From contig CAJAQO010000218.1 in NCBI GenBank assembly GCA_903944085.1, positions 1 through 41,443 on the forward strand: a stretch of 41,443 bases of DNA, written 5' to 3'. The notes under the pieces were generated by a model. That model saw only the letters and a program-made list of their open reading frames with translations, did no database searches and had not been told where the DNA came from. This document shows, in pieces, positions 10,723 through 34,991 of this stretch; position 1 is the first letter of the stretch; the number at the start of each line of letters is the position of its first letter. A program made the translations under genes and the position numbers. This DNA comes from an uncultured Verrucomicrobia subdivision 3 bacterium (GTDB lineage: Bacteria; Verrucomicrobiota; Verrucomicrobiia; Limisphaerales; UBA11358).

Positions 10723-10763
10723 CAAAAAACGCCGTTCCGTTTTGCGCGGAACGGCGTTTCGAT
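10723..10763. terminator. Bidirectional rho-independent terminator
   Basis: A perfect 13-bp stem, AAACGCCGTTCCG (10727-10739) with CGGAACGGCGTTT (10747-10759), closes a 7-nt loop. There is an A run on the left and T-rich sequence on the right. It sits between the converging Fe-S carrier gene (ends 10710) and mgtA (ends 10775) and can serve both strands. Confidence 0.85.
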
Positions 10764-27544: not shown

Positions 27545-30500
27545 TTATTTCGCTTTGCCCCGCAAGTCCTGAAGATCCTGCTCCTTGCTCGTAAGCTGGC
27601 GCTGGAGCTGTTGCACCTGCTCCTTCAACTGCTTCACGTTTGCGGGTTCATTGCCGCCGTTGTCGAGAATGACCACCTGGCCACCGGTCGCCGGCGGTTT
27701 CGACGCAGCGGCATACTGCGCATCAAAATCAAGCGGCAGCAGCGGCGGCGTCGAGGCGATCCGTGCCTCGCCGGATTTGAGACCTTGAACCTGCGCCTTG
27801 ATGTGAATGACTCCGGGCGTGGTTTTTGCGCGCACCAAAACAGTGGCCGTGCCGAACTCGGTGCGAACCGGGATGGTATGGGACATCGGGCTGGAAACAA
27901 TTTCGCCCGGGCCTTCGACTTCAAAATAAACATATTCCTCGGCGAGCACTTTCGGCACGCCTTTGTTGTCCACGATCGTCGCGCGCACCGGCACGAAGTC
28001 CGAACCGTCCGCCGTCAGGCCGCAGCCGGCATCGTCCACCGTCACCTTCACGCCGGTGGTGCGCTCGGGATATTTTTTCACGATGCGAATCGCGACATTG
28101 GTGCCGATCAACCCTTCAGCAACCATTTCAATCTGGCCGGTTCGCTCGCGCCAATGGCTATTGATCTCCGAAAAATGAAAAACGTTCGTGAACGTGAACG
28201 GCGGATGCGGCATGTGGCGGTAATGTTCATCGGGCTTCTGTGTGCCTACCACCTTGCCGAGCCAAGTCAGGCGGACTTGTTCGCAATTGCAATAGATGAC
28301 CACGTTCGCATCGGAAACCTGGGTAAGCTCGTGGGTAATGTAGAGCATCGGACCGGTCTCGATGCCGGGCAGTTTATAATCGGGATCATACTGGCTCTGG
28401 AACAAATAATACGCGTAGCGCGGCAGGCGAAACTCGTCGAGGATTCCGCCCATGAACGGATCGGGATGGTAGCCGCGCTGATGGTCAATGCCGCACCAAA
28501 GCGCCGCGCCGAGACGGATGGGCGGCGCGGCGTAGCAGTCGTCGAGATCGTGCGCGCGAATCGCGGCTTGCTTGAGCAACGGGCCTTCGCCCCACTCGTG
28601 GTTCACGCGGGTCGTTGCGTTTTGCGAATAAAAATTATCCACCTCGCCGCCGTCGCCGTATTCCCGCGTGAAGGAATTGATCGTCCCGCTGTAGGAGCCG
28701 CCGTAATAGAAATCCAGTCCACCTTTTTCGGCCAGCCCCGCGTCCGTCACGGTGAACATTCCGGGAAACGGATATTCCGCATGCGCGATGACATTCATCT
28801 TGCCCAGCATCGCCGGCGGCTGGTTGTCTGTTTCATTGAGCGCGGTTTCCCAGAGCAGCATTGAAGGATGATTGCGGTCGCGGCGGACGAGATTGTGCGT
28901 GTCCTCGTAAATGCGCTGCTCGAAAACCGGATGCTGGTCGTTAAAAAATTGCCAGCCCGGATTGGCCGTTGTGACCAACATACCGAACTCGTCGCACGCA
29001 TCGTAAAACGCGGGCGACTGCGGGTAATGCGCCGCGCGGATGGCGTTCACGCCGCCTTCGCGCAGCAGCTTGATGTCGCGCCACTGGCTGGACTTGGGCA
29101 TGGCGTTGCCGACGTAAGCGTAATCCTGATGGTGGTTGACGCCGTTCAGCTTCACGCCGATAAATTTTTTGTTCACGAACAAGCCGGCTTGCCCACGCAT
29201 TTCAAACAGCCGGATGCCGAACCGTGTGCGCAACGTGTCTTGGACCTTGCCGTCCGCGACAATTTCCGTGCGGATGAAATGCAGATACGGATCGTCCGGC
29301 GACCAGAGCCGGATGTTTTTGGCCTCAAGCGCCTGCGTGATTTCCTGGCTCGCGCCGGCCGCGAGTTCCACCGGCTGTTCGCTGCGCAAAACTTCGCGAC
29401 CCTCCGCCGTCTCAAGAATGGTGCGGAGCGTGACGTTGCGCGGCGCGGCGGAGTCGTTCGCGATCTCGGTGCGGACTTCGAGCGACGCGTCGTTGCCATT
29501 AACATCCTTCACGCCCACAAACACGCCGCCGCCGGCCACCGTCTGGCTCAACTCCGTCAGCGTCACATGAACCGCCGACGTGCCGATCAAATAGGTGTCC
29601 CGGTAAATGCCGCCCATGTAGGTGAAGTCGAGATCATACTGCGGCTTGCCCGGCGGATAAGTCGGGTCGTTCGAGTTGTCCGCGCGCACGGCGATTAGGT
29701 TGTCCTTGCCGTCGGCGTGCAACCGCGAGCTGATCTCCGCCGCGAACGGCAGGTAGCCGCCAAAATGTTCCGCGACCTTCTGGCCGTTGACCCAGACCGA
29801 ACACTTGCCCATCACGGCTTCAAAATAAACATAAACCTTCCCGCCCGCCGCCGGTGGTGCAGCGCCAAAGCGTTTGCGATACCAGGCCGGCCCCTGATAA
29901 TTGCGGCAACCGCTGGCGTTTTCGCCCAAAATCTCCAAGCCGTGCGGCAGGTTGGCCGCCTCCCAAGATGTGTCGTCAAAATCCATTTTTTCCGCGCCGA
30001 CGGCATCCGCCTTCAGAAACCGCCAACCGGGATTAAAATTCTGCACCGTGCGAGCGCCGTCAGCTACGGGGAAAAATCCCGCCGTCGAAAATTGCGGCAC
30101 CGGTTTCGCCAGCGTGGCATCGGGAACATCGTCCACCGCCGCGTTGGCCCAGTCCGCGTGGTCGCCCTGAACGCCGTCGCCGCCGTCGGTGACGACCAAC
30201 CGCAGTTCCTCAACGCCGCTAACATCCAGAGCGATGTGTTTCGCCGCTTGCCCAAATCTCATCAAGCCGCTGTCGAACGCCAGCTTGCCATCGAGCAAAA
30301 CCCGGAACACCACCGAGCCCGTCGCGCCGCCTTCATCATCCACGCCCACGTCGGCGGCGAACTGCTTGTGTTTGCGATCCAGCTTAAAAATCATCTCGCC
30401 CGGCGCGTGCGTGCCCAAGCCCTTTTCGTAAGTCTTGCCGGCGATGGTGAGCGGCCGCCCGGTAATGCTCAAATCGGTCAACGTCTCGCGCCAGCCTTGC

Positions 30501-30634
30501 GTGACCGACACGGCCATGTCGGTGGTGAGGTATCGCCAGATGACCGGACTGGCACCGGCCACCGGTTCTTGGGCGGAAGCGATTTGCAGCCCGCGCAGCA
30601 TTCCGAACGCAATTAGTAATAACAGTCTTTTCAT
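27545..30634 (-). CDS. Secreted glycoside hydrolase family 2 enzyme with NPCBM-like domain and coiled-coil tail
   Basis: A 1029-aa protein with a signal peptide (LLLLIAFGMLRGLQIASAQ). Residues about 35-165 resemble an NPCBM carbohydrate-binding domain (KGLGTHAPGEMIFKLDRKHK). The GH2 sugar-binding, Ig-like and TIM-barrel domains follow. The likely acid/base is E601 in the LNETD motif, and the likely nucleophile is E680 in NHEWGEG. Conserved GH2 barrel segments are GVNHHQDYA, LREGGVNAIRAAHYPQSP and CDEFGMLV. The last ~30 residues (NVKQLKEQVQQLQRQ...) are a coiled coil, unusual for the family. A beta-galactosidase, beta-glucuronidase or related beta-exoglycosidase are the options; the substrate cannot be told from sequence. 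The ATG at 30634 fits the signal peptide. Confidence 0.93.
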   Translation of the reverse strand: MKRLLLLIAFGMLRGLQIASAQEPVAGASPVIWRYLTTDMAVSVTQGWRETLTDLSITGRPLTIAGKTYEKGLGTHAPGEMIFKLDRKHKQFAADVGVDDEGGATGSVVFRVLLDGKLAFDSGLMRFGQAAKHIALDVSGVEELRLVVTDGGDGVQGDHADWANAAVDDVPDATLAKPVPQFSTAGFFPVADGARTVQNFNPGWRFLKADAVGAEKMDFDDTSWEAANLPHGLEILGENASGCRNYQGPAWYRKRFGAAPPAAGGKVYVYFEAVMGKCSVWVNGQKVAEHFGGYLPFAAEISSRLHADGKDNLIAVRADNSNDPTYPPGKPQYDLDFTYMGGIYRDTYLIGTSAVHVTLTELSQTVAGGGVFVGVKDVNGNDASLEVRTEIANDSAAPRNVTLRTILETAEGREVLRSEQPVELAAGASQEITQALEAKNIRLWSPDDPYLHFIRTEIVADGKVQDTLRTRFGIRLFEMRGQAGLFVNKKFIGVKLNGVNHHQDYAYVGNAMPKSSQWRDIKLLREGGVNAIRAAHYPQSPAFYDACDEFGMLVTTANPGWQFFNDQHPVFEQRIYEDTHNLVRRDRNHPSMLLWETALNETDNQPPAMLGKMNVIAHAEYPFPGMFTVTDAGLAEKGGLDFYYGGSYSGTINSFTREYGDGGEVDNFYSQNATTRVNHEWGEGPLLKQAAIRAHDLDDCYAAPPIRLGAALWCGIDHQRGYHPDPFMGGILDEFRLPRYAYYLFQSQYDPDYKLPGIETGPMLYITHELTQVSDANVVIYCNCEQVRLTWLGKVVGTQKPDEHYRHMPHPPFTFTNVFHFSEINSHWRERTGQIEMVAEGLIGTNVAIRIVKKYPERTTGVKVTVDDAGCGLTADGSDFVPVRATIVDNKGVPKVLAEEYVYFEVEGPGEIVSSPMSHTIPVRTEFGTATVLVRAKTTPGVIHIKAQVQGLKSGEARIASTPPLLPLDFDAQYAAASKPPATGGQVVILDNGGNEPANVKQLKEQVQQLQRQLTSKEQDLQDLRGKAK

Positions 30635-31307
30635 CAGACGATTTATTCAAGTTGCCGCCAAGTTCGACAGTGTTTTCAAAACGGTGCGCCATGATTGGGC
30701 GGTCAGAACAGCGAGCCGCAAAACTTGCAAGGTGTGCCGGTTCAGCCAACTGGTTAAATGTTCACTGTTTTTTGATTGCACCGCAACCCCGCGAATATCA
30801 CCCGCTTTGCCGGTCATACATTGGTGATATTCTCCGCCACATTCACCCGGCCAAATTCTTCCCCTCGATCGCATTCCAAAAATTGCCGCAAAATGTAATG
30901 GCCGGAATGTGAGCCCGTGACTAGACTCGGTTCATGGCGCAGATTTCCAGCCATCTTCCCATATTTGTTCAGGACGCCGCTGTTGATTTCGACGCTGACT
31001 TTTTGGATTTGCGCCCCCCTCGACAACATCCTGAAAAACACGATTTTGACCGACTCCACCAATCCGCCGCTGGCTTTGAATAAATCCAAAAACTGCATGG
31101 GTTCAAATATGAGTCCGGTTATGTGGGGCGGCAAGTTTTCAAAAAGTGCCCTGTCCTGCTACTTCCGCCAAATTCAAAACAACGCCAACTGTTAGCCGCT
31201 GGCTTCCTCAAATTGCTGACTCCAATCCGAACCCATCTCAGACATCCATGGCCACCGGTTCCGGCACCTCGTCGCGGGGATATGGTGCCCGAAATTCTGG
31301 CCTGCGG
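30635..31307. other. Gene-poor stretch upstream of the GH2 gene
   Basis: About 670 bp without a supportable gene. Only frames of about 75-130 codons exist on either strand, none with a recognisable motif. It must hold the GH2 promoter near 30640-30700, but I cannot point to one. Confidence 0.4.
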
Positions 31308-31387
31308 GGCTGATTTCGGCGGTCAGGAGACTCGAACTTCTGGTGGGCTATCACCCACTGGCACTAATGCCTCCGCCGAAATCAGCC
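31308..31387 (-). other. 80-nt cloverleaf-forming inverted repeat, candidate structured RNA
   Basis: Perfect 15-bp outer arms, GGCTGATTTCGGCGG (31308-31322) and CCGCCGAAATCAGCC (31373-31387), enclose 50 nt. Read on the minus strand these 50 nt hold three further hairpins in order: GGCA-TTAG-TGCC; GTGGG-TGATAG-CCCAC; and CAGAAG-TTCGAGT-CTCCTG with one mismatch. The last loop, TTCGAGT, fits the tRNA T-loop consensus. The plan is that of a tRNA cloverleaf, but with a 15-bp acceptor-like stem, a 4-nt D-type loop and a 6-nt anticodon-type loop. It is therefore not a normal tRNA. It lies just beyond the terminator of the 57-aa ORF. Confidence 0.45.
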
Positions 31388-31388
31388 G

Positions 31389-31428
31389 CAAAAAAACCGG
31401 CGTCGGTTCCTCCACCTGAACGCCGGTT
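31389..31428 (-). terminator. Rho-independent terminator after the 57-aa ORF
   Basis: Read on the minus strand, AACCGGCGT, a 16-nt loop and ACGCCGGTT form a perfect 9-bp stem (arms 31420-31428 and 31395-31403), followed by a run of at least six T. It lies 45 bp after the small ORF's stop and supports that ORF being transcribed. Confidence 0.85.
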
Positions 31429-31472
31429 CCTGCGGTCAACCGTTGCACGCGAGGCAACGATTGCGGGTTGGC

Positions 31473-31646
31473 TTAATGCTGCTTGTGCGCCTGGCGGCGC
31501 GGAGCTTTCGGCGATGCCGGAGGCGTCGCGTGGGCAGGGGCGGTCGTTGGGGCCGTGGCCGGGGCGTTCGCGGGACATTTCTGCGCGCAAACCGGTGTGG
31601 CCGGGCTGGTCGCGGTCGTTGTTTTGGTGTTGTTTGATTCGTTCAT
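31473..31646 (-). CDS. 57-aa Ala/Pro/Thr-rich small protein, unknown function
   Basis: On the minus strand the ATG at 31646 opens a 57-codon frame ending at TAA (31473). The N-terminus is MNESNNTKTTTATSPATPV, then C-A-Q-K-C (a Cys pair), then Ala/Pro/Thr repeats (APATAPTTAPAHATPP) and a basic end (KAPRRQAHKQH). The upstream DNA is AT-rich, the stop is followed by a strong terminator, and the composition looks non-random. No signal peptide or membrane segment is seen. The family is not recognised. A low-complexity linker-like or nucleic-acid-binding role (basic tail) is only a guess. Confidence 0.5.
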   Translation of the reverse strand: MNESNNTKTTTATSPATPVCAQKCPANAPATAPTTAPAHATPPASPKAPRRQAHKQH

Positions 31647-32125
31647 AATAATTTAGATTTTCAGTTTTCTGGTTGTTTCTACTCAACCGGCTTTCCTCAA
31701 TGCATTCGACATGCCAATCCACATATGATGCCCCGATCATTGGAATTTGGCCGATTCCGATGGGGTCAACCTCAGAACTGGATTGTTGCAAATTCGTCGT
31801 TTACTAAATTTCATAATTTGAATGACGAGATTTCGTTCCCCGTGTCGTGCGGTCAAAAGTGCCATCGAAGAAATTTCCCGATGATTTCAGGGAGATTATG
31901 TGATTTTTTCCGATAAACGGATTTGCTGGATAGGTTCAAATGGCAGGTCGTCAGAATTTCGCGGCTGGTCAAACTCTGGCACGAACCAGCAATTTTGCGG
32001 TTCGATCTTGGTCGCGAGCGTGGAAAACCGCTCCACCGGGCGCGATGGATCGGAACAATTGTTGCGGAGTTGTTCGCAAAAGATGTCAAGCATGAGGCCG
32101 CTTTTGATTTATGATATTCAGGTGA
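31647..32125. other. Intergenic region before the sigma-54 activator
   Basis: An AT-rich stretch of about 480 bp that should hold the promoters of the 57-aa ORF (minus) and the activator gene (plus). A TGGCACG match at 31977-31983 has its GC pair one base too close for a sigma-54 promoter. No other element is recognised. Confidence 0.4.
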
Positions 32126-33802
32126 ATGAATCGGGCTGGCAACCCGAACGTCCACCTGAACATGCGCTTGGCATCTGATTACAGACCAGAATTTGAATCC
32201 CTGGCCAACCTTCTTTTGGAGGTGGCTCAGGAACGTTCCATGGACCAATTGTTCAAGAAAGTGGTTCAACGCCTCGCAGAACGGCCTCACGTTTTTCTAG
32301 CCAGCCTCTGGTTGCTGGACAAGGGTGATCTTTGCCCGACGTGTCTGCTGCAGGCACAATGTTCAGACCGGAGCCGGTGTCTGCACTTGGTTGCCAGCGC
32401 CAAATCCCCGCTCGAAACTGCGGACGACGCACATTGGAATAGAATCGCGGAAAAATCCACCCGAATTCCTTATGGCTACGAGGGGATCGGCCAGGTCGTC
32501 TCCACCGGTCAGCCTTTCGTCAACCTCAAACCCGGGCAGGACGTCAGTGGGATCGGCGAGAACAACTGGGCCGCACAGGTCGGAATCCGCGGTTTGGATG
32601 TGCAACCGATCATTTTTAATGGCGAGACACTTGGCGTGGTGGCACTTTATAGCCGGATCATAACGCCCACCCAAGGGCCGACGTGGGTGCGCATCTTCGC
32701 CAATCACATCGCCGCCGCCATCATCAACGTCCGCGCCTTTGAGGAAAACGAGCGGCTCAAGCATCAGCTTGAGTTGGAGAACACCTATCTGCGGGAAGAA
32801 GTCAACGAAGCCAGGGCGTTTGGTGGCATCATTGGTCAAAGTCAGGAATTAAAATGTTTATTGCGCCAGGTGGAAAAAGTCGCCCGCACCGACGCCACAG
32901 TTTTGATCCTCGGCGAATCCGGCACGGGCAAGGAACTGGTGGCGCGGGAAATCCATAAATGCAGCCGCCGCAATCAGCGGCCGCTGATTCGCGTGAATTG
33001 CGCGTCCATCCCGAAAGAATTATACGAGAGCGAGTTTTTTGGACATGTGAAAGGCGCCTTCACGGGGGCCTTGAAAGATCGCGCCGGGCGTTTTGAGGCC
33101 GCCGACGGGGGCACCATGCTGCTCGATGAAGTTGGTGAAATCCCACCGGAGTTGCAGAGCAAATTTCTCCGGGTATTGCAGGAGAAACAATATGAGCGGG
33201 TGGGCGACGAGCGGACACGAACCGTGGATGTTCGCATCATTGCCGCAACCAATCGCAATTTAAAGCAGGACGTTGAGGCGGGGCGGTTTCGCCAGGATCT
33301 TTACTATCGCCTCAATGTATTTCCCATCGAGGTTGCGCCACTGCGAAAACGCAAGGATGATATTCCCTCGCTGGCGGCGCATTTTCTTGACCAGGCGATT
33401 CGCCGGCTGAACGTGCCATCGGCCCGGCTCACGCCTGCGAACTTGGTTCAATTGCAGACCCATGACTGGCCAGGCAATGTGCGCGAACTGCAAAACACCA
33501 TTGAGCGCGCGTTGATCCTGGCCCAAAATGGTGTTTTGAATTTTGATTTCTCGAAGGACGAAGGCCGATCAATCAGCACCCCGGCTCCGGCCGCGACGGG
33601 CCAGTCTGCCGCCGCCATCCTGACCGACATTGAGTTTCGGCAACATGAGCGCGAGAATGTTCTTTTGGCACTCAACCAAGCCGGGTGGAAAATCTTCGGG
33701 CCGGGCGGCGCGGCCGAATTGTTGGGCTTAAAATCAACGACTTTGGTTTCGCGGCTGAAACGGCTCGGCATCACGAAGCCGTCGAAAAATTCTGCCAACT
33801 GA
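32126..33802 (+). CDS. Sigma-54-dependent transcriptional activator with GAF domain
   Basis: A 558-aa enhancer-binding protein. Residues about 20-205 form a GAF-type sensor carrying a cysteine group, C70-x2-C73-x5-C79-x5-C85 (DLCPTC...QCSDRSRC). A short coiled linker follows (about 205-230). The AAA+ domain has Walker A GESGTGKE (263-270), the sigma-54 contact loop GAFTGA (310-315), Walker B GGTMLLDE (328-335) and the R-finger region (DLYYRLNVFPIEVAPLRKR). The C-terminus is a Fis-type helix-turn-helix (AAELLGLKSTTLVSRLKRLGI). It should activate sigma-54 promoters, probably including that of the next two genes. The ATG at 32126 is one choice; ATG at 32162 (MRLASDY) is also possible. Confidence 0.95.
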   Translation: MNRAGNPNVHLNMRLASDYRPEFESLANLLLEVAQERSMDQLFKKVVQRLAERPHVFLASLWLLDKGDLCPTCLLQAQCSDRSRCLHLVASAKSPLETADDAHWNRIAEKSTRIPYGYEGIGQVVSTGQPFVNLKPGQDVSGIGENNWAAQVGIRGLDVQPIIFNGETLGVVALYSRIITPTQGPTWVRIFANHIAAAIINVRAFEENERLKHQLELENTYLREEVNEARAFGGIIGQSQELKCLLRQVEKVARTDATVLILGESGTGKELVAREIHKCSRRNQRPLIRVNCASIPKELYESEFFGHVKGAFTGALKDRAGRFEAADGGTMLLDEVGEIPPELQSKFLRVLQEKQYERVGDERTRTVDVRIIAATNRNLKQDVEAGRFRQDLYYRLNVFPIEVAPLRKRKDDIPSLAAHFLDQAIRRLNVPSARLTPANLVQLQTHDWPGNVRELQNTIERALILAQNGVLNFDFSKDEGRSISTPAPAATGQSAAAILTDIEFRQHERENVLLALNQAGWKIFGPGGAAELLGLKSTTLVSRLKRLGITKPSKNSAN

Positions 33803-33876
33803 GTCTCCCGCTTCAGGCTGTTGCGCCGCCCGGTTCCAGACGAAAGTTCGTAGTCAGCCTACGCGAAATTGGAATT

Positions 33877-33890
33877 TGCGAACCTTCGCA
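33877..33890. promoter_or_regulatory. Inverted repeat, candidate activator binding site
   Basis: TGCGAA-CC-TTCGCA is a perfect 6-bp palindrome, 70 bp upstream of the possible -24 element. This fits an enhancer site for a Fis-type activator dimer, but the distance and sequence are only suggestive. Confidence 0.35.
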
Positions 33891-33959
33891 GCCTCTCAGG
33901 GAACCATTTCAAAGGCTCCACTATGTTCGGGTTCAGCGACTTGCGCCTCAAAATGCGTT

Positions 33960-33975
33960 TGGCACGCGACATGAT
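33960..33975 (+). promoter_or_regulatory. Partial sigma-54-like promoter before the AhpD/HPr pair
   Basis: TGGCACG at 33960-33966 is a perfect -24 element. Four bases later comes ATGAT, against TTGCW expected at -12; the G is in place but the following C is A. It lies about 60 bp before the ATG at 34036 and right after the sigma-54 activator gene. The -12 mismatch makes it weak or false. Confidence 0.4.
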
Positions 33976-34035
33976 AAAAGAGTTCTGACGGTAAAAACAA
34001 ATACAAGTCGGAAACCATCGCAAACCAAAACAATT

Positions 34036-34611
34036 ATGTGGCGTTTAACTCCCATAGACGACGAACATTTTGTTCAGGCATTCCCAAGCATCGCCGGCAA
34101 GCGTCCACCTTCGGCCAACGATGAACCGTTTTTCCTCCGACTCCTGGCCAAATCGCCGGCATCCATGAAGGCTTACCTTCTGGCTGAAGAAGCGCTCGGG
34201 AATGGACGGCTGACACTCCATCAACGCGAGGAGATTTCGCTCGCCGTCGCGGAGATCAATGGCTCGAATTACTGTTTGGCGACGCACGAGCTGGCCGGCA
34301 AACAGGCGGGCTTAAGCGACGAGGAGGTCACACTGGCGCGGAAAGCCTGGTCAAACGACGCGAAAACCAAGGCCATGTTGCATTTTGTCCAAGCGGTCGT
34401 GCTCCAACGCGGCGAAATCAGCGACGATGACTTTTCGGCCCTGCGAACCGCCGGATTTGCCGAGGCTGAAATCATTGAGATACTGGCCAATGTCGTGCTG
34501 AACATTTTTACGAATTATTTCAACCTGCTCGCCCAGACCGATCTGGATCATCCCCTTTCAAGACCAGACTGGAAAGATCGGCCATACAATCTGCCAAATC
34601 AAAGCGCATGA
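34036..34611 (+). CDS. AhpD/carboxymuconolactone decarboxylase (CMD) family protein
   Basis: A 191-aa helical protein of the AhpD-like alkylhydroperoxidase/CMD superfamily. The active-site segment is REEISLAVAEINGSNYCLATHELA: the Glu and His are present (H84). Of the usual C-x2-C pair only the second Cys (C80) remains; the first position is S77. The family's peroxidase members need both cysteines, so it may be a CMD-like non-peroxidase or act differently. The frame is open far upstream to 33685, but the ATG at 34036 gives a normal length. Its stop overlaps the start of the HPr gene by four bases (ATGA), so the two are translationally coupled. Confidence 0.88.
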   Translation: MWRLTPIDDEHFVQAFPSIAGKRPPSANDEPFFLRLLAKSPASMKAYLLAEEALGNGRLTLHQREEISLAVAEINGSNYCLATHELAGKQAGLSDEEVTLARKAWSNDAKTKAMLHFVQAVVLQRGEISDDDFSALRTAGFAEAEIIEILANVVLNIFTNYFNLLAQTDLDHPLSRPDWKDRPYNLPNQSA

Positions 34612-34991
34612 GTGCAGTTTTAACATCTGACAATGTTCCACCAACGGCACCGCAGATTGCCATGCCGGTCGAGACCGGCACGGTCAGGCAGGTCTTTGTG
34701 CTTGAAAATCGCCAAGGCCTGCATTGCCGGCCGGCCGCATTGCTGATCAACACCATAAAGGACCTGGCGTGCGAAGTGAGGGTGGAAAGCAACGGGGCCG
34801 TCGCCAACGGGAGAAGTCTCTTCGATTTGATGAGTTTGGCGGCGGGCTTCAGAACGACAATTGCATTTACCATCACGGGGCCGGAGGCACAAAAAGCCAT
34901 GGCCGCAATCCAACGCCTCTTTGAGAATAGATTTGCCGAGGCCTACGATGAAGATCATCCATTGAGCAACGCACGGATGCCGGTTTTATAG
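34608..34991 (+). CDS. HPr-like phosphocarrier protein
   Basis: A 127-aa protein with the HPr fold (about residues 28-112) and a ~25-aa N-terminal extension. The phosphorylated His is H39 in GLHCRPA; the usual motif is GLHARPA, so the next residue is Cys40 here. The regulatory-Ser region reads NGRSLFDLMSLAAG, with S70 in the place of the HprK target Ser46. HPr transfers phosphate between enzyme I and IIA proteins or acts in regulation. No enzyme I, IIA or HprK gene is in the window. The start overlaps the CMD gene's stop (34608-34611). Both lie after a sigma-54 activator, reminiscent of PTS-Ntr links, but that is inference. Confidence 0.9.
   Translation: MSAVLTSDNVPPTAPQIAMPVETGTVRQVFVLENRQGLHCRPAALLINTIKDLACEVRVESNGAVANGRSLFDLMSLAAGFRTTIAFTITGPEAQKAMAAIQRLFENRFAEAYDEDHPLSNARMPVL

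Follow-up and report, generated by a model that had tools for sequence, protein, structure and literature searches.

The locus and its cloverleaf element

The window (the whole stretch of DNA analysed) is the 41,443-nt contig CAJAQO010000218.1 (GCA_903944085.1) of an uncultured Verrucomicrobia subdivision 3 bacterium (Limisphaerales; UBA11358). A gene for a glycoside hydrolase family 2 protein with an NPCBM domain lies at 27545–30634 on the minus strand. A GAF and sigma-54 activator gene lies at 32126–33802 on the plus strand, divergent from a 57-aa ORF, and the plus-strand stretch 33685–34991 has a carboxymuconolactone-decarboxylase-family frame and then an HPr gene. Elsewhere in the window, at 10727–10759, there is a perfect 13-bp inverted repeat with a 7-nt loop.

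At 31308–31387, two arms of 15 nt each (31308–31322 and 31373–31387) are 100% complementary to each other with 50 nt between them. We observed that both strands of this region fold into a cloverleaf made of a 15-bp closing stem and three hairpins. The predicted energy was −46.2 kcal/mol for the plus strand (z −7.28) and −45.5 kcal/mol for the minus strand (z −7.81), and on either strand none of the 200 dinucleotide shuffles was equally stable. The features are as follows.

31303–31392, minus strand: entire cloverleaf RNA as modelled, 90 nt, with the minus strand taken as the functional one
31373–31387, minus strand: 5′ strand of the closing helix P1, 15 bp unbroken (complementarity, covariation)
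31308–31322, minus strand: 3′ strand of P1 (complementarity, covariation)
31360–31371, minus strand: P2 hairpin in the D-arm position, with a variable loop (fold, covariation)
31343–31358, minus strand: P3 hairpin with the constant core GGNUGAYAGCC, kept in all 18 sequences of alignment A6
31324–31342, minus strand: P4 hairpin in the T-arm position, its loop following UNNRA in all 18 sequences
31395–31428, minus strand: conserved hairpin with GGAGGAA in its loop, between the ORF and the RNA (window's genus only, 7 loci)
31473–31646, minus strand: 57-aa ORF that precedes the RNA at each of the 7 genus loci

The third hairpin carries the loop TTCGAGT on the minus-strand reading (7 nt, 31330–31336), and its stem has one A-C mismatch. 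If up to two single mismatches are tolerated, P1 of the window extends to 22 bp. The initial annotation, made from the sequence alone, had described the perfect 15-bp arms with three hairpins in D, anticodon and T order, and had read TTCGAGT as a T-loop. The arms and hairpins held on complementarity and folding. The T-loop held on the minus strand, with its general UNNRA form present in 18 of 18 sequences. The middle hairpin, P3, does not have the form of an anticodon arm and resembles a variable arm.

Single-sequence folds gave the three-hairpin cloverleaf for the window and for 6 of 10 other loci (L053, L054, L055, L058, L061 and L075). The minimum free energy folds of the remaining four (L043, L044, L045 and L052) retained P1 with a rearranged interior.

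Relatives of the element in Verrucomicrobiota

A second full copy of the element was not found in the window's own genome. A blast search with 111 bases against 195 genomes (own genome included) gave six more strong matches of 88–91% identity. These came from five genomes, all of the window's genus, one of which (G026) holds two. For 52 of the 58 matching genomes only short matches were obtained (at most 39.2 bits), and these were disregarded. The aligned sequences of the genus retain the core and both strands of the stem.

We then relied on covariance models. R1, run on 320 genomes of the order, added the strong distant members G267 and G110; the same scan also matched a weak locus of G075 and a tRNA-Ser of G314. 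In 384 class genomes, R2 found G136, G120 and G070 as further members, together with three weak matches. R3, a model made from 18 sequences, gave 19 matches at E 0.01 in the 320 order genomes, and 18 once the tRNA-Ser of G314 was removed. The window's element scored 103.7, 98.8 and 86.9 bits with R1, R2 and R3, respectively; these models were built partly from the window's sequence itself. In 387 genomes drawn from the phylum, R3 gave four matches at E 0.01, namely the own genome, a plausible one in G538 and doubtful ones in G510 and G418.

The 18 carriers span six families, with six genomes from the window's genus, eight from family f23 and one each from f6, f9, f20 and f52. In the order scan, 17 of the 18 have a single copy, and the two copies of G026 are nearly identical and located on two contigs. 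The RNA is present in all eight f23 genomes searched (five genera, one place per genome). In the window's genus, carriers number only 6 of the 49 genomes scanned (seven matches minus a weak one in G004).

A search that does not depend on pairing was made with the pattern CGGATGATAGCCCGNNNGNGGTG, which covers only the core of P3 and the beginning of P4. Among 84,980 named species genomes it occurred at 10 loci, and the whole model matched nine of them with 47.8–71.1 bits. As the pattern is silent on P1 and P2, this result checks both helices without rewarding pairing. The nine loci belong to Pedosphaera sp. and to Verrucomicrobiales or Verrucomicrobia MAGs. They are identical letter by letter to elements already found, all among the 18, and so were not added to the counts. 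To date, all members of the family found in the genomes scanned come from Verrucomicrobiota around Pedosphaera. Because just 11–13 candidates are scored per genome in the large scans, failure to find the RNA does not prove its absence.

Several candidates were set aside. L047 (G314) is called tRNA-Ser by ARAGORN and was removed from the family. L049 (G004) retains the letters of P1 and P2 but not the P3/P4 core and was judged false. L056 scores in the range of 27–33 bits, is missing most of P4 and falls within an open frame; L057 and L076, in the same range, were judged doubtful on score. L067 (Leptospirales) was a pattern locus without a model match and was taken as chance. One pattern match on a viral contig (L068) showed no such fold by eye in the 201 surrounding bases, where no model was run, and two further patterns had no match on viral contigs. 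Six plasmid records had short matches, the best covering 29%, and contained no copy.

Two further loci deserve description. L046:1501–1601 (G075) is a long palindrome with GGCTGATAGTCC inside and scores about 31 bits; its core letters are similar, P4 is not kept, and its relatedness is unresolved. L055:1501–1590 (G538, another family of the class) is a tentative distant member with 40.6 bits against R3. It has a 7-bp acceptor-like stem, a T-arm of the form UGGGG-UUCGAUU-CCCCA and the P3 core GGATGATAGCC, followed by an interrupted outer stem. Its fold has a z of −1.97, with 8 of 200 shuffles equally stable, and a 174-aa open frame, the meaning of which is untested, runs across it.

Covariation, conserved loops and strand

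In 17 distinct sequences, pairing holds for 94.3% of the cells, and both-side changes occur in 25 of 32 pairs, compared to 19.0 in shuffles. The number of both-side cells was 140 against 53.6, and the covariation score was 0.651 against 0.213, with controls of slid partners giving 0.061–0.176. None of the 500 shuffles reached any of the five measures. At the first step, with the sequences of the genus plus G267 and G110, 20 of 32 pairs already changed on both sides (shuffle mean 5.4). Taken by themselves, the seven genus sequences give only modest covariation: 2 of 32 pairs changed on both sides against 1.5 in shuffles, a level reached by 262 of 500, and the covariation score of 0.121 compares with 0.086 in shuffles, 9 of 500 of which attained it. 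The criterion for a structured noncoding RNA, compensatory stem changes beyond those of shuffles, was met; its both-side count was unmet with the genus alone.

The models used to collect the rows of alignments A5 and A6 favour paired sequences; this bias is checked by the pattern search described above and by a model-free alignment, A7. From A7 (MAFFT and RNAalifold, 16 sequences) P1, P3 and P4 were recovered, with both-side changes in 22 of 29 pairs. P2 was not predicted by RNAalifold on this alignment, and the A7 sequences were nevertheless trimmed at ends defined by the model. In A6, the row of L040 is identical to another and was counted once, while A7 is without L040 and L048. L075 (G222) is a family member absent from both. 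L046, L047, L049, L055, L056, L057, L067, L068 and L076 are all excluded from the alignments behind the covariation counts (A5, A6 and A7); L046 stood in A4, an alignment left unused.

The four helices differ in how they are conserved. In P1, 15 of the 19 modelled pairs change on both sides and three never vary; its length is 18–25 bp in 17 of 18 sequences (at most two single mismatches allowed) and 13 in L058. All three pairs of P2 change on both sides and 91.7% of its cells are paired, with variable loops. In P3, two of four pairs change on both sides and the core GGNUGAYAGCC is invariant. In P4, five of six pairs change on both sides, one pair is unpaired in 7 of 17 sequences, and the UNNRA loop pattern is constant; the exact loop UUCGAGU is limited to the seven genus sequences among the 18. 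In all 18 sequences, the pentaloops of P3 and P4 both have U as the first residue and A as the last. No constant GG is available in the P2 loop of the 18 sequences for a tRNA-style pairing with the T-loop. On the modelled strand there are 34 G-U cells against 12 A-C cells, and this excess favours the minus strand, although 13 of the 34 come from one U-G pair.

These data show a four-helix cloverleaf with a long closing helix that remains paired even as most of its base pairs are replaced, with a P2 arm of variable loop, a constant P3 core and a constant T-loop pattern in P4. A covariance search of relatives had been named beforehand as the test of the initial annotation, and the homologues do keep the stems through compensatory changes.

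The 57-aa ORF, the upstream hairpin and other neighbours

The initial annotation had pointed to a neighbouring 57-aa ORF, and this claim held (31473–31646, kept in the genus). On the strand they share, 80 nt separate its stop codon from the modelled element downstream, and the distance is 73–89 nt across all seven genus loci. The ORF is 57 aa long at five loci and 55 aa at L042; at L048, where the contig ends nearby, 46 aa are readable. The product is rich in Ala, Thr and Pro, has the conserved end RRQxRKQH (RRQAHKQH in the window) and has no Pfam match. Between G008 and G041, the ORF shows 2, 1 and 12 changes at the three codon positions, which supports it as coding. The more distant comparison of the window with G042 (28, 17 and 36 changes; 39 non-synonymous and 9 synonymous codons) supports it more weakly. 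A protein search of 49 genus genomes found the ORF in five, all carriers of the RNA; it missed the ORF of G026, which is present beside its RNA. The C-terminal motif was absent from all 14 loci of other families. Unfiltered tblastn with the low-complexity ORF peptides gave only scattered matches (best E 7e-6), which were taken as compositional.

The hairpin at 31395–31428 keeps its stem largely intact in the seven genus loci, and 4 of its 13 predicted pairs show both-side changes. A T-run follows it in the window only, among the seven. The hairpin is missing from the terminator scan, which, with its loop limit of 8, could not have listed it. The terminator proposed by the initial annotation thus held only in part: the hairpin is conserved, its role as a terminator is unproven and we regard it as doubtful. 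GGAGGAA in its loop resembles the GGA-loop sites of CsrA-type regulators.

The initial annotation had also considered transcription of the area plausible, and this was not shown: no promoter was found in a scan of 31200–32130, and there are no RNA data. Promoter scores upstream of 18 elements (including the tentative L055) showed no significant excess over those downstream (Wilcoxon P 0.37) or over those of the reverse strand upstream (P 0.067). The matrix was made from textbook frequencies. Good promoters occurred mainly in f23, a subgroup noticed post hoc.

In the eight f23 members and L061, conservation ends at the ends of P1, and the flanks are not conserved (by eye). The f23 RNA follows a GlnRS gene in L053, L054, L059 and L075 (Pfam) and in L062 (sequence reading), with polA further out in L054 and L063 (Pfam). 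Neighbours in other families are a response regulator and DUF1328 (L045), a tRNA-Gly (L052) and a YpsA-like gene (L044). As the neighbours vary between families, no partner gene is indicated. In the genus, a Zn_ribbon_9 gene is immediately downstream of the RNA in L003 and L006, and the start region of this gene aligns in the remaining genus loci (by eye). A protein search of the window's genome located the zinc-ribbon gene on contigs C308 and C83 and not in the window; the element is intact without it, and the RNA is therefore independent of that gene. Open frames of 75–134 aa overlap several other elements, and their coding status is untested.

Comparison with known RNAs

No Rfam 15 family reached its gathering score at the element, in the window or at the loci tested. 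At 31200–31500, with E up to 10, there were four matches, the best of 17.2 bits and all far under the gathering scores. ARAGORN found no tRNA in the window and called none of 20 elements; the tRNA model RF00005 (threshold 29 bits) was not met at the element, in the window or at the tested loci, where the only Rfam tRNA match was the tRNA-Gly beside L052. The initial annotation had likewise excluded a normal tRNA.

The element nevertheless shares with tRNA the UNNRA-type T-loop on its third arm, and with class II tRNA-Ser the cloverleaf order and, in the window's genus, the T-loop UUCGAGU. The layout, consisting of a closing helix, a hairpin in the D-arm position, a variable-arm-like hairpin and a T-arm, is that of a tRNA minus the anticodon arm. 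P3 has 4 bp and a near-fixed 8-nt loop, unlike the 5-bp stem and 7-nt loop of an anticodon arm. A 7-bp acceptor and a free CCA end are also missing, and the closing helix is mostly 18–25 bp. Without an anticodon arm and a free acceptor end, the RNA as it stands could be neither charged nor used for decoding. The variable arm of the genome's own tRNA-Ser(UGA) (GGGTGAAAGCCC) resembles P3, whereas the other three tRNA-Ser found differ. Alignment of the window's 3′ half (P3–P4) with this tRNA scored 19, against a mean of 11.4 and a maximum of 18 in 300 shuffles, which is weak. The tRNA likeness was compared over 11 loci, ten of them long-variable-arm tRNAs. Either descent from tRNA-Ser or convergence is possible.

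Other tRNA-like RNAs were also considered. The mascRNA-menRNA family (RF01684), known from mammals, is a small tRNA-like cloverleaf with a T-loop. It lacks the long closing helix, and its best score was 25.0 bits (E 0.82) against a gathering score of 42.5, for the tentative L055 only. In bacterial Y RNA (YrlA), both RNA ends form a long stem that is capped by a tRNA-like module. Y RNA models gave nothing at gathering score, and nothing at E up to 5 over 19 loci. The identity with Y RNA was rejected after a TROVE search, in which Ro60 was not found in five of the six genus carriers. Matches to Ro60 (TROVE, PF05731) occurred in 2 of 49 genus genomes and in one carrier (G008), with none in the window's own draft genome. 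This search was confined to the genus, and carriers in other families were outside it.

The two conserved U...A pentaloops also recall the double T-loops of T-box stem I, RNase P and the L1 stalk, an interdigitated motif described previously (PMC4810234). In the element, however, the pentaloops sit in two hairpins of a four-way junction and their docking is unproven; no T-box or RNase P match was found by Rfam in the window and the loci tested. No account of this RNA was found in the open-access literature searched, including the main text of PMC2864571, and most subscription papers were outside that search. To our knowledge, tRNA-like RNAs beyond tRNA and tmRNA are few in bacteria.

Alternative explanations

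The closest rival holds that the P3 (UGAYA) and P4 (UNNRA) loops intermesh into a flat stacking platform of the kind known from RNase P, T-box stem I and the L1 stalk of the ribosome, so that the RNA would itself grip the tRNA elbow and be a tRNA-binding RNA, not a mimic. The U and A at the ends of both pentaloops fit this idea. However, residue 4 of P3 is a pyrimidine, the closing pair of a P3 T-loop would be A-C in 15, C-C in 2 and G-C in 1 of the 18 sequences, a GAYA tetraloop with a closing U-G pair is an equally good reading of P3, and there is no 3D evidence; we consider it unlikely. Similarly improbable is a tRNA-like signal for 3′-end mRNA processing after the 57-aa ORF, guiding cleavage by RNase P or RNase Z or protecting the message, the role that mascRNA has for MALAT1. 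The ORF precedes the RNA in 7 of 7 genus loci, and the mascRNA-menRNA score of L055, although under the gathering score, points the same way. Against it, the ORF motif occurs in 0 of 14 loci of other families, and the long P1 would leave RNase P or Z no single-stranded acceptor end (an inference).

There is still less in favour of a cis-acting leader (riboswitch or attenuator) of a downstream gene, which in the genus would be that of the C4 zinc-ribbon protein. The Zn_ribbon_9 gene just 3′ of the RNA in L003 and L006, and its aligned start region elsewhere in the genus, support it. The window, however, has an intact element without an intact zinc-ribbon gene, although a remnant of the gene start is not excluded, and in other families the RNA is followed by a different gene or by one of opposite orientation. 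A mobile or structural DNA palindrome (MITE-like, or a recombination site) with no RNA role is equally remote. Its long inverted repeats, the lack of fixed neighbours between families, its presence in 6 of 49 genus genomes, the two copies in G026 and the palindromic weak match L046 with similar core letters would suit it. The absence of a second full copy from the own genome, the single copy in 17 of 18 carriers, the place after GlnRS in five of eight f23 members, the conserved loops and the excess of G-U over A-C cells do not. A decayed tRNA-Ser gene is all but excluded. The 3′ half does align with the genome's own tRNA-Ser(UGA) just above the shuffle maximum, but decay yields neither compensatory changes across six families nor presence in 8 of 8 f23 genomes, and UUCGAGU is limited to the genus. 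Ancient descent from tRNA-Ser remains possible. The initial annotation had offered a tRNA-like RNA, a decayed tRNA and a mobile palindrome side by side; the compensatory changes, the lack of a second copy and the presence throughout f23 favour the tRNA-like RNA over the other two.

A probable helix-sealed tRNA-like RNA

A structured RNA is by far the best reading, because of the covariation, the constant loops and the eight of eight f23 genomes; the fold is well supported, with transcription inferred. It is likely to be a new family, absent from Rfam 15, within the loose kind of tRNA-like RNAs, and its function is inferred. Our preferred explanation is a noncoding RNA gene on the minus strand, probably encoding a stand-alone RNA that presents a tRNA-like surface. 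We place this at a probability of about 0.6, with both transcription and function inferred.

According to this stand-alone reading, the RNA would be transcribed by itself, for which there is no transcript evidence. The long P1 helix would seal the 5′ and 3′ ends and stabilise the molecule, and P4 may stack on P1, by analogy with the T-arm on the acceptor arm of tRNA. The P3 loop and the P4 T-loop would be the working surface, docking on each other or onto a partner. In that role the RNA may imitate a tRNA, or it may bind a factor whose normal target is the tRNA elbow or the long variable arm.

A bolder reading, which we hold at clearly less than even odds, is that this is a new bacterial RNA class that uses the chemistry of the tRNA elbow in a helix-sealed cloverleaf acting in trans. 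Its two constant, T-loop-like hairpins would mimic the tRNA elbow or else hold on to it in the manner of RNase P and T-boxes, and, with its likeness to a serine-type variable arm, its target would be the tRNA-binding machinery of Pedosphaera-like bacteria. The family is defined by its structure and not by its neighbours, is present in every f23 genome searched and has a compact constant core, which makes its function directly testable.
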